DNA from: Candidatus Olsenella pullistercoris
Lineage (GTDB): Bacteria > Actinomycetota > Coriobacteriia > Coriobacteriales > Atopobiaceae
Direction of reading: 5' to 3'
DNA: 37,321 nt
NCBI GenBank assembly: GCA_019116525.1
Contig: DXBM01000028.1
Location: 1-37,321, forward strand
Shown: positions 12,580-35,997 of the stretch, piece after piece
Layout of the letters: the number at the start of each line of letters is the position of its first letter
Position numbering within the stretch: position 1 is the stretch's first letter
Translations under genes and position numbers: made by a program
The notes under the pieces: model-generated
Seen by the model: only the letters and a program-made list of their open reading frames with translations
Database searches by the model: none
What the model was told of the DNA's origin: nothing

Positions 12580-12802
12580 CTTAGGGGCGTGAAGGAAGTG
12601 CACGATTGGGTGACGCCGGTGCTTAAGGACGTGCGGGAAATGCGCTCTTTTGCGGTGTAGATCGCGCTCCGGTCAGACGGAGCGCGAAGTTTCCGCAGGT
12701 CGTTGTTCTTCTCGCCGCGGGGCGCCTTTCGCAAACCTGCTCTTCCCGTAGATTTCTAAGCGGGCAGGCCTGTCAACTCTGCACTTCCCGCACTTTCCTA
12801 AC
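12580..12802. repeat. Four-unit inverted element, core GGGAAGTGC, copy 1 (223 bp)
   Basis: Plus-strand units start at 12580 and 12622 (CTTAGG... GGAAGTGC and CTTAAG... GGGAAATGC), 42 bp apart. Minus-strand units start at 12802 and 12760 (GTTAGGAAA... GGGAAGTGC and CTTAGAAA... GGGAAGAGC), also 42 bp apart. The centre of about 55 bp holds a CGCGCTCCG hairpin and CTTCTCGCC. The whole gap from 12501 to 12938 has no coding sequence that I can support. It contains the hairpin at 12524, this element and the leader of the next gene. Confidence 0.85.
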
Positions 12803-23547: not shown

Positions 23548-23660
23548 GCGAGCGCGTTCGATGGGTTCGGGTGACGCAACACCTCGAACCTGGTCAGGGC
23601 CGGGAGGCAGCAGCCATAAGGGGCCTCTGGCGGGCACCCGTTCCCATCGAGCGCGCTTTT
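23548..23660 (+). ncRNA. ffs: Signal recognition particle RNA, small bacterial type
   Basis: The core GGTCAGGGCC, then GGGA, then GGCAGCAGCC is the Ffh-binding helix 8, with a GGGA tetraloop that fits GNRA. The ends pair as a long rod: GCGCG TTCGATGGG TTCGGGTG at the 5' side with CACCCGTTCCCATCGAGCGCGC at about 23635-23656. A TTTT follows and is a likely terminator. A TAGAGT just before the 5' end may be the -10 box. End positions are estimates. Confidence 0.92.
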
Positions 23661-30828: not shown

Positions 30829-30857
30829 GTTGCCGTTGCCTCGTCCCGTTGCGGCCG

Positions 30858-31005
30858 CTCGTAAATTGCCGCACGTCCCAGCCTCCTGCGCGCCGCCGTT
30901 CCAAAAACGCGCCATGTCCCAGTTTTGGGGGAGGTTTCGGCTGGGACATGCCGAGATTTTGGAGCAAATCGCCCTTCTCGGCTGGGACATACGCCGATAT
31001 GCGAG
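30858..31005. repeat. Four-unit inverted element, core TGTCCCAG (148 bp)
   Basis: Plus-strand units start at 30858 and 30899, 41 bp apart (CTCGTAAATTG...CGTCCCAG and TTCCAAAAACG...TGTCCCAG). Minus-strand units start at 31005 and 30964, also 41 bp apart (CTCGCATATCG...TGTCCCAG and CTCCAAAATCT...TGTCCCAG). The centre is shorter than in the other elements, so the inner units overlap. It sits between two strong terminators. Confidence 0.85.
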
Positions 31006-31010
31006 CGACA

Positions 31011-33912: not shown

Positions 33913-33996
33913 GTACGCGCTGGGAGAGGCCCCGGCTTCCATGCGAGAGCGCGCTGCGCGGAACTCTCGCCCGGGAAGCCGGGGCCTCCCGCGTAC
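33913..33996. terminator. Long nested hairpin after rubrerythrin
   Basis: Three nested arms pair: GTACGCG (33913-33919) with CGCGTAC (33990-33996); a perfect 15-bp arm (33926-33940 with 33974-33988); and GCGAGAG (33943-33949) with CTCTCGC (33964-33970). The structure starts 13 bases after the stop. It lacks a T-run, so a terminator role is inferred, and a repeat or mobile origin is possible. Confidence 0.6.
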
Positions 33997-34010
33997 CGAA
34001 TGCTCCCGCC

Positions 34011-34130
34011 GCCGTCCTTCTCGCCGTGTCCACCCGCCGCCCTTCTCGCCGGGTCCACCCGCCGCCCTTCTCGCCGGGTCCACCCCCCCCGCCCTTCTCG
34101 CCGGGCCCATCTCCTGCCCTTCTCGCTCCG
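34011..34130 (+). repeat. 25-bp tandem array on the word CCTTCTCGCC
   Basis: Three full 25-bp units (34011-34035, 34036-34060, 34061-34085) are almost identical, each with CCCTTCTCGCC and GGGTCCACCC. Two shorter, diverged copies follow to about 34126. The array leads straight into the four-unit element at 34132. The gap 33901-34661 contains the hairpin, this array, the element and about 300 bases with no recognisable gene. Confidence 0.85.
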
Positions 34131-34131
34131 G

Positions 34132-34354
34132 CTTAGAAAAACGAGGGAAGTGCAGAATAACGATTGCCGCGCGCTTAGAAAAGTCGAGTAAATGCGGGCG
34201 AGAAGGACGTGCTCGTGACAGGGCGAGCTTCCTAGCTGCTCAAATGCAACAGCACCTATGACCGTAGGCCTTGGAGGGGCGAGAAACCCTGCAATTCGTC
34301 GCTCTATCTAAGCGCACGGAAGGCGAAATCGCGCACTTACGCGCGTTCCTTAAG
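34132..34354. repeat. Four-unit inverted element, core GGGAAGTGC, copy 2 (223 bp)
   Basis: Plus-strand units start at 34132 and 34174 (CTTAGAAAA... GGGAAGTGC and CTTAGAAAA... GTAAATGC), 42 bp apart. Minus-strand units start at 34354 and 34312 (CTTAAGGAA... GTAAGTGC and CTTAGATAG... CGAATTGC), also 42 bp apart. All four spacings and the total length equal those of the copy at 12580. Short open frames across it are not convincing genes. Confidence 0.88.
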
Positions 34355-34661: not shown

Positions 34662-35756
34662 ATGGACGTTTTTCTCTCACATACCACCGCGCTTGCTGCC
34701 CTGCGCTCCTGGGGCCTGCGCCGTGCCCTTGAGCGCGGCGAGCGGGAGAACGTAACGGTTCCCGAGGGGCTGCCAGGTTCCGACGAGCTCTCTGAGCTGC
34801 GCCGCAGGCTCCCTGCATCTGTGGGTGAGGGAGAGCTCGAGCTTGCCGTGCGCTCCGGTCGGCCCGGCCTGCGTCGGCGCAGCGGCGTGCGGGTTCGCCG
34901 CGAGGGGGAGCCGCTGCCGGAGGGGGCGGCCGTGCGCGTGGCGGACGGCGTGGTCTGCTCGTCCCCGGAGCTCGTGGTTGTGCAGATGGCGCCGCAGCTC
35001 ACTGATCTCGAGCTCGCGATGCTGCTCTGCGAGCTCCTGGGGCGCTACGCCGTGAACCCGGACGCTGAGGATGGCATGCTCCAGCGCGACGTCCCTGTCA
35101 CGACACCCGAGCGGCTCCGCGCCTTCCTTGACGGGTTGGGCTCGCGCCGTGGGGTGCGTCGCGTTCGCAGGGCGATTTCGCAGGCCTGCGTGGGCTCAGG
35201 CTCCCCGCGCGAGAGCAAGCTCTCCCTGCGCTTCACGCTACGGCCCGGCCTAGGGGGCTGGAACCTCGACCTCCTCTCAATGAATGCCCCCGTTGAGGTG
35301 CGGCGCATTCACAACGCACTGAGTCGTGGCGTTCGCAGGCCGGATATCCTCCTGTGCGCGGGCGGGCCAGGGGGCCAGCGCCGGGTGGTCGCGGTTGAGT
35401 ACAACGGTCGTCGCCACGACCACCCCGCTCGCCTGGCGGCCGACGCTTTGCGCACCAACGAGCTCAAGGCCATGGGCATCGGCGAGTACATCGTGCGCCG
35501 CGAGCAGTACGAGGACCTCGACTACATGGATGGCCTCGTCGAGCGGATCCGTCGCGACCTCGCCCTCCCGCGAACGGGCCTGACGAGCGAGGAGGCCGCG
35601 CGCCGCCGTGCGCTGCGCCAGCGGCTTTACGAGGAGCTCGAGCTCATCGACGGCGTTCACTGGAACGGTCGGGAGCGGGCCAGGCGCCGTTTGGCGGCGT
35701 CGGACGGGGAGGCGGCGTGGGACGTGGTCCCTGTGGAGGCGTACGGGATTGACTAG
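34662..35756 (+). CDS. Two-part protein: AbiEi/winged-helix-like N-terminus and DUF559/Vsr-like nuclease C-terminus
   Basis: The 364-residue protein begins MDVFLSHTTALAALRSWGLR. The first 160 residues resemble the DNA-binding antitoxin-type (AbiEi) proteins in overall pattern, with VVCSSPELVVVQMAPQL in the middle. The C-terminal part has the restriction-endonuclease-like order of PRESKLSLRF (E184), RRPDILL (D228) and VAVEYNGRRHD (E246, N248, H252), then RTNELKAMGIGEYIVRREQYEDL. This is the pattern E...D...ExDGxxH of DUF559 and Vsr nucleases, with Asn for Asp at 248. No ribosome site precedes the ATG; GATAGC nine bases upstream could be a -10 box for a leaderless message. It is flanked by two copies of the GGGAAGTGC element. 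The role is unknown. Confidence 0.7.
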   Translation: MDVFLSHTTALAALRSWGLRRALERGERENVTVPEGLPGSDELSELRRRLPASVGEGELELAVRSGRPGLRRRSGVRVRREGEPLPEGAAVRVADGVVCSSPELVVVQMAPQLTDLELAMLLCELLGRYAVNPDAEDGMLQRDVPVTTPERLRAFLDGLGSRRGVRRVRRAISQACVGSGSPRESKLSLRFTLRPGLGGWNLDLLSMNAPVEVRRIHNALSRGVRRPDILLCAGGPGGQRRVVAVEYNGRRHDHPARLAADALRTNELKAMGIGEYIVRREQYEDLDYMDGLVERIRRDLALPRTGLTSEEAARRRALRQRLYEELELIDGVHWNGRERARRRLAASDGEAAWDVVPVEAYGID

Positions 35757-35796: not shown

Positions 35797-35997
35797 GTTA
35801 GAGAAGCTCGGGAAGTGCGGGATTTGATCGTTGGGGCGCTTAGGAAGGTAAGGGAATTGCACCATTTTGGGCCTCAGGAGCCATGAGAAGTACGGGCGAA
35901 CTGGGGTTTTGTTGGGAAGGTCACTGAGAACGACGCACTTGGGGGTAGTTTTTAAGCGCTAGGAAGGCCAGTCGCGCAATCACGCCCAGTTTCTAAG
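35797..35997. repeat. Four-unit inverted element, core GGGAAGTGC, copy 3 (201 bp)
   Basis: Plus-strand units start at 35797 and 35839 (GTTAGAGAA... GGGAAGTGC and CTTAGGAAG... GGGAATTGC), 42 bp apart. Minus-strand units start at 35997 and 35956 (CTTAGAAAC... GTGATTGC and CTTAAAAAC... CCAAGTGC), 41 bp apart. The centre is 21 bp shorter than in the other two copies. The gap 35757-36173 contains this element, the direct repeat and the leader of the branching enzyme gene. Confidence 0.83.

Follow-up and report, generated by a model that had tools for sequence, protein, structure and literature searches.

Three inverted elements and a nuclease-like gene

The DNA analysed here (the window) is a 37,321-nucleotide stretch of Candidatus Olsenella pullistercoris and represents contig 8 of its genome (G000; 1.88 Mb, 81.5% complete). 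It contains three elements with one and the same layout, i.e. two units on the plus strand, a centre and two units on the minus strand, and the second and third of these lie upstream and downstream, respectively, of a gene for a 364 aa nuclease-like protein (Table 1). The three elements had been described in the first-pass annotation, and both their positions and their spacing were reproduced: same-strand units start 42 bp apart in five of the six pairs and 41 bp apart in the sixth, and the inner units of elements 1, 2 and 3 start 138, 138 and 117 bp apart, which makes the inner distance of the element downstream of the gene 21 bp shorter than that of the other two.

Searching the window with the unit pattern (up to three mismatches) gave six matches where 0.06 were expected, a number reached by none of 100 shuffled sequences. 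A 30-bp unit matrix, derived from the three window elements and seven others of the same genome, detected 12 units scoring at least 9 bits in the 37 kb of the window, every one of them inside the three elements. The string originally given for the unit was too strict, as just one of the 12 units matches it without mismatch; the consensus over 19 arms (GCTTAGRAAnnnnnGGnnAnTGCnnnnTT) is more degenerate. The centre of element 1 also contains a perfect inverted repeat (Table 1), which was not seen in the other centres displayed. About five tandem copies of a unit of near 25 bp (CCGCCCTTCTCGCCGGGTCCACC) precede element 2, at about 33994-34126.

Table 1. Features of the window discussed in the text
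Feature	Position	Strand	Units and description
Element 1	12580..12802		12580-12601 (+), 12622-12643 (+), 12739-12760 (-), 12781-12802 (-)
Perfect inverted repeat CGCGCTCCG...CGGAGCGCG	12663..12686		Centre of element 1, ahead of the central TTTCCGCAGGT motif; identified by eye
Second-family element	30857..31006		30857-30881 (-), 30898-30922 (-), 30941-30965 (+), 30982-31006 (+), second and fourth by eye; unit about CTGGGACGTGCCCCGATTTnnGAGC, period 41; paralog gene G000:C40:9560-10666
Element 2	34132..34354		34132-34153 (+), 34174-34195 (+), 34291-34312 (-), 34333-34354 (-)
Nuclease-like gene	34662..35756	+	364 aa; Vsr/MTES_1575-like family features; proposed arm-binding protein; elements 2 and 3 lie on either side
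Element 3	35797..35997		35797-35818 (+), 35839-35860 (+), 35935-35956 (-), 35976-35997 (-)

A dispersed element family with helically phased gaps

We expanded the search to the whole genome using a two-unit profile and the unit matrix, and found 18 elements, one of which has three units and two of which have an extra fifth unit. As only one lone unit was found besides these 18 elements, the family consists neither of randomly scattered single units nor of copies restricted to the window by recent duplication, the two outcomes that had been named as refuting it. The elements are located between predicted genes, with two overlapping a predicted ORF start, and their neighbours include leuS, thrS, pyk, glmU and rpsO (names assigned by eye). 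The flanking genes can be in tandem, convergent or divergent orientation, and follow no obvious rule.

A test for steps of 10-11 bp between the inner distances had been suggested, and such steps were found in a set of 41 elements from five genomes with two clean units per side, some of which are orthologous and hence not all independent: the distances are found at 68, 99, 120, 131-132, 141-143, 152-153 and 163-164 bp, and are quantised at 10.6 bp (R 0.94), a value not attained by any of 20,000 jittered sets (shifts of at most 5 bp). The same was true for the 16 elements of G000 alone (R 0.97, 0/20,000 jittered sets). Because the gaps are quantised in this manner, they support the earlier suggestion that a protein may bind the elements on one face of the DNA. 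Neighbouring units on the same strand are spaced by 42 bp in 93 of 104 cases and by 41 bp in nine, and in the sister families described below (52 paralogs) the most frequent distance between units is 40-42 bp in 32, 30-31 bp in nine, 62 bp in two and another value in nine.

A scan of named genomes gave 30 matching stretches, of which 12 are from Olsenella or other Atopobiaceae, while the rest look unrelated. The latter score low with the unit matrix, although one Myxococcales contig stands out, its four units reaching 13.6-16.1 bits. The stretches from Prevotellaceae were rejected as family members, since they consist of a 21-bp tandem repeat; one genome of Prevotellaceae UBA4332 has 21-bp units in tandem on four contigs (L075, L078, L099 and L100), with GCTTAGCAAGG or the inverse of it, and these look like a separate array family in the Bacteroidota.

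Within the genus, 46 pairs of elements from different genomes have homologs in common among their nearest genes, and several of these pairs keep both immediate neighbours, e.g. leuS, thrS and pyk. Array types and element positions do vary between species: for the convergent site on contig 11 of G000, the matches of the flanking genes are as close as 51 bp in G003 and as far apart as about 12.9 kb in G023, and the guaB-leuS region contains other repeats in other species of the genus, some of these forming inverted rows around a centre (by eye). In four genomes (G013 L149, G019 L170, G023 L145 and G030 L159) the guaB-leuS repeats are 21-bp GGTTATGCGC units located upstream of leuS, and their inverted rows surround a centre with GCAGGT (by eye). 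The motif CGCAGGT is located 4 bp from the centre in several CTTAG elements of 225 bp, but was dropped as a candidate for a universal cut site, since it could not be recognised in other families at the corresponding place. Another short motif, GGCGAGAAG / CTTCTCGCC, occurs 23 times in the window (1.2 expected, 0/100 shuffles), for instance at 12708-12716 and 34017-34102; by eye it is also present in the guaB-leuS region of many genomes, directly after the stop codon and before leuS, often as GGCGAGAAGAACC, and some array centres contain it as well. Neither a cleanly bordered insertion nor a target-site duplication was found, the latter having been looked for by eye at the flanks of ten elements, and the genome comparisons gave one suggestive breakpoint: in G004 the similarity to G015 stops at the outer edge of an element, with a different gene beyond.

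A conserved protein family with nuclease-type residues

The gene between elements 2 and 3, which had been overlooked in the first-pass annotation, is the likely partner gene of the arms, as judged from its position and from the comparisons below. Its homologs are present in all 31 genomes of the genus, with 4 to 13 matches each (E 1e-6). Across the Atopobiaceae, a profile search was positive in 125 of 140 genomes, and 30 of the 35 genera were represented. When the phylum was sampled evenly, a match was obtained for 34 of 396 genomes, and 33 of these were among the 35 genomes from the same order; the family is therefore nearly confined to the Coriobacteriales in this sample.

Database searches of Pfam, NCBIfam, PADLOC and the sequences of the PDB gave nothing firm on the identity of its domains. 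For the window protein, Pfam gave no match and NCBIfam none close to its cut-off, while the best that the PDB sequences offered, a TRIM5 chimera (E 0.013), was discounted as a probable chance hit. Matches to MTES_1575, all below the Pfam gathering score, were obtained for two of the first 34 family members (E up to 0.01), for which it is the sole Pfam family touched, and for six of ten further members (E up to 0.1), one of the ten also having a DUF559 match below the gathering score. The residues E184, D228 and H252 are present in all 45 full-length rows of the family alignment and D261 in 44 of these, in what we take to be the order of the EDxHD motif, a motif with a link to Vsr. Together, the conserved residues and the sub-threshold Pfam matches give the family a resemblance to the Vsr/EDxHD-like nuclease fold. 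The dN/dS ratio ranges from 0.12 to 0.42 in 12 pairs, which shows the family to be under purifying selection. The profile alignments of two paralogs in G000 (G000:C30:16556-17632 and G000:C12:73804-74907) each cross one in-frame stop.

Paralogs tend to be flanked by their own type of array

From several hundred homologs, 88 Atopobiaceae paralog loci were searched de novo for repeats (a set without the duplicate locus L209, and without L214, which yielded no gene). Inverted units, on both strands in both flanks, were found for 57 of the 88 paralog loci, compared to 3 of 51 neighbour genes from the same loci, and the positive loci are divided into 45 of 68 within the genus and 12 of 20 in the other genera of the family. 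The median array score was 50 for the paralogs vs 19 for shuffles; 43 of the 88 loci combine the two-flank test with an array score of at least 45, whereas 5 of the 51 control genes reach this score at all. When units on both strands in at least one flank are counted, the number rises to 85 of 88, and among the 31 loci failing the two-flank test there are 28 with inverted units in one flank. The gene of the window is one of the loci failing the test, because the repeat finder took the nearby 25-bp tandem repeat, while the unit matrix places CTTAG units on both of its sides. For the remaining two families of the order, the two-flank test was positive at only 4 of 20 loci. The centre gap is usually equal in the two arrays of one gene.

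The similarity of the arms tracks the identity of the proteins (Mantel r 0.59, 0/5000 permutations, 54 paralogs with good scores; r 0.62, 0/5000, without two rows where the finder picked another repeat). An arm is shared (similarity over 0.6) in all 23 paralog pairs with at least 70% protein identity, in 7 of 23 pairs at 60-70%, and in none of the 553 pairs under 40%. Inheritance of the gene and its flanks as one block partly explains this co-variation and inflates the Mantel result, while searches for dispersed copies of the arms are less open to this effect. In these searches the arm TTGGAGG, carried by the paralogs at the rubrerythrin locus of G019, G023 and G026, has 97, 116 and 54 units in these genomes, respectively, vs 0 to 5 in the other 28, and the arm GACAAGGGCGGCGATTCCT, found with paralogs of 75-82% mutual identity in G013, G024, G030 and G003, has 173, 122, 110 and 70 units in these, vs 0 to 7 in the remaining 27. 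For the second paralog of G000, 28 units of its arm were counted in G000 itself, and between 0 and 5 in each of the 30 others. By this count of arm sequences, the three non-CTTAG arm types appear concentrated in the genomes where the matching paralog was found. With regard to the CTTAG arms, these extend beyond the genomes with a CTTAG-flanked gene, with 82 matches in G007, 22 in G004 (99% complete) and 12 in G024, and no CTTAG-armed paralog was found among the homologs examined there (3 of 6, 7 of 10 and 2 of 9 matches, respectively). CTTAG arrays in genomes with no matching gene found are a point against the interpretation given below, as are the 31 loci failing the two-flank test, the few positive loci in the other families of the order and the low share of common arms at 60-70% protein identity.

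The rubrerythrin locus provides an example of the different states of such a gene. The gene adjoins rubrerythrin in seven genomes, on the same strand in G000, G015, G020 and G029 and on the opposite strand in G019, G023 and G026. In G024 and G007, rubrerythrin is followed by array units without the gene and then by glgB, while another 17 genomes have glgB after rubrerythrin, with neither the gene nor CTTAG units (G004, G005, G022, G025 and G030 being unclassified). Recombination between the two palindromic arrays that flank the gene, with inversion or deletion as the outcome, would explain these states.

The elements as probable target arrays of a resident nuclease-type family

We consider it probable that the elements are DNA target arrays of this fast-diversifying nuclease-type family of the Coriobacteriales, in a system which resembles REPIN-RAYT but is built on another type of protein. 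In the proposed mechanism, protein subunits would occupy one unit after another along the same face of the DNA, so that two rows of protein converge on the centre of the inverted array, where the Vsr/EDxHD-like domain may cut or nick. The arrays would then spread and be homogenised, either because the cut array is released or because the break is repaired from another copy, and recombination between the two arrays flanking a gene could invert or delete that gene. A system of this kind, behaving like REPIN-RAYT, would be resident in the genome and either selfish or domesticated. Comparative sequence analysis gives the pairing of protein type and arm type, the phasing, the dispersal and the purifying selection, and from these we infer that the nuclease-like protein may bind, cut and mobilise the arrays. 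We put forward more tentatively, and with a little less than even confidence, that the Coriobacteriales contain several parallel resident systems of nuclease and array, each reading its own phased unit and driving or maintaining the scattered arrays built from it, in which recognition has often been re-invented and for which the recognition code may be readable from the co-variation.

REPIN-RAYT systems (PMC3116915, PMC8049555) have a dedicated enzyme gene with flanking repeats, dispersed intergenic inverted doublets and more than one enzyme-repeat pair per genome, with the repeats not seen on plasmids. REPINs are also described from E. coli genomes without a RAYT (PMC8049555). The Coriobacteriales system is alike in having repeats flanking the enzyme gene and an enzyme-specific repeat dispersed in the same genome (with the CTTAG arms of G004, G007 and G024 as the exception), and in having several pairs per genome, a negative plasmid search (see below) and repeats in genomes where no gene was found. 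In contrast to RAYTs, the protein has no Y1 (HUH) transposase match, with MTES_1575 being the only Pfam family among the 34 members, the arms consist of several units in rows of 31 or 41/42 bp, the opposing inner arms of the CTTAG family do not match at their variable positions, and the family is restricted almost entirely to one order in the phylum sample. Because of the lack of a Y1 transposase match and the mixed hairpin results given below, we set this system apart from REPIN-RAYT.

The protein also has similarities to EDxHD (Vsr-like) homing endonucleases such as I-Bth0305I, in the conserved order of E, D, H and D, and to MTES_1575/DUF559 (Vsr-like restriction-endonuclease fold, PF18741 / PF04480), for which all matches were sub-threshold. 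Unlike the genes of these homing endonucleases, the genes found here are flanked by arrays of many units which recur elsewhere, and no intron or intein was seen. The attP sites of tyrosine recombinases have arm-type and core-type sites, and share with the elements an arrangement in which inverted arm sites surround a centre and keep register with the helix, in some elements with a central TTTNCGCAGGT motif; the 18 scattered copies without cargo are unlike attP, and the displayed centres of the other families look different. According to PMC6083498, the EDxHD and PD-(D/E)XK motifs are related.

If the elements are indeed such target arrays, then an unrecognised class of enzyme plus repeat shapes the intergenic DNA in an order of gut and oral bacteria, and would be a second dedicated bacterial enzyme with its own repeat population, apart from the RAYTs. 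This second case would therefore test ideas on why such repeats persist. The dozens of paralogs with differing arms are a natural data set for changes of DNA specificity within a protein family, with a possible use in the design of sequence-specific DNA tools. Our results point to a lock-and-key DNA system which has not been described previously: the literature searched, with thin coverage of subscription journals and hence short of proving absence, contained no description of such arrays or of the protein family, and neither did it contain a repeat class with this geometry, as the first-pass annotation had also noted.

Alternative explanations and folding of the elements

An architectural or regulatory role is an unlikely but serious alternative. 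A DNA-binding protein would then bridge or loop the scattered arrays, and so organise the chromosome or tune the neighbouring genes, with the nuclease-type residues having a different catalytic role or none and the arrays being static. A looping complex would go well with phasing to the helix and with the inverted symmetry, some element positions are common to related species, and six orthologous element pairs of G004 and G015 show 4.2% difference in the core vs 10.1% at the other unit positions (P 0.005) and 10.9% in the spacers (P 0.0009). This count leaves out the pair L113/L136, which did not align properly, its flank being 50% different (with that pair included the core is 14/300). However, the difference between the core and the flanks (6.9%) is not significant (P 0.11), the variation in array type and position between species of one genus and the lack of a rule in the flanking gene order do not favour such a role, and the nuclease-type residues are invariant.

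We think it improbable that the family is a defence or toxin system, in which a nuclease effector is restrained or guided by arrays acting as decoys or self marks. The many paralogs per genome would be consistent with this, as would the rapid divergence of orthologs at the rubrerythrin locus, which are 54-61% identical to the window protein, compared to 93-96% for rubrerythrin in the same genomes. None of the 34 members had a match to the PADLOC profiles (E 0.01), though, and tblastn searches with the window protein at E 0.001 found no homolog among 72,556 records of plasmids and 50,697 of phages, while the locus next to rubrerythrin is common to seven genomes.

It is even less probable that the nuclease-like gene is a bystander and that the elements are ordinary MITEs, belonging to a transposon which has escaped notice. 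While inverted ends, dispersed intergenic copies and positions differing between species are all MITE-like, the ten copies compared have the phased motif and not the full-length sequence in common. Inner and outer units begin alike in the arm comparison, so there is no special terminal sequence; the quantised gaps are not expected for MITEs, and the arm type follows the nuclease-like paralog.

Finally, we compared the elements with hairpins of RNA or single-stranded DNA, such as attC-like folded sites or terminators. The folding of element 1 surpasses that of 200/200 shuffles (z -3.08), helped by its perfect internal inverted repeat, and the second-family element is matched by 5/200 shuffles (z -2.16), but for element 2 there were 22/200 shuffles folding as well (z -1.27). 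In the CTTAG family, the variable positions of opposing inner arms match at 0.377 vs 0.376 for shuffled arms, and those of the outer arms at 0.428 vs 0.382, a slight excess reached by 0.15% of the shuffles. The earlier argument against an RNA stem, that the variable parts of opposing arms do not pair, therefore stands for the inner arms but not fully for the outer ones. Folded hairpins are thus the least credible of the explanations, as the unmatched inner arms weaken a full hairpin despite the good folding of element 1 and the near-perfect inverted repeats formed by the inner units in several short-centre families, and Rfam has no RNA family or tRNA at the element positions. The Rfam search of the window identified only tRNA and SRP RNA, the latter being a small SRP RNA at 23558-23653 which reached the gathering score.
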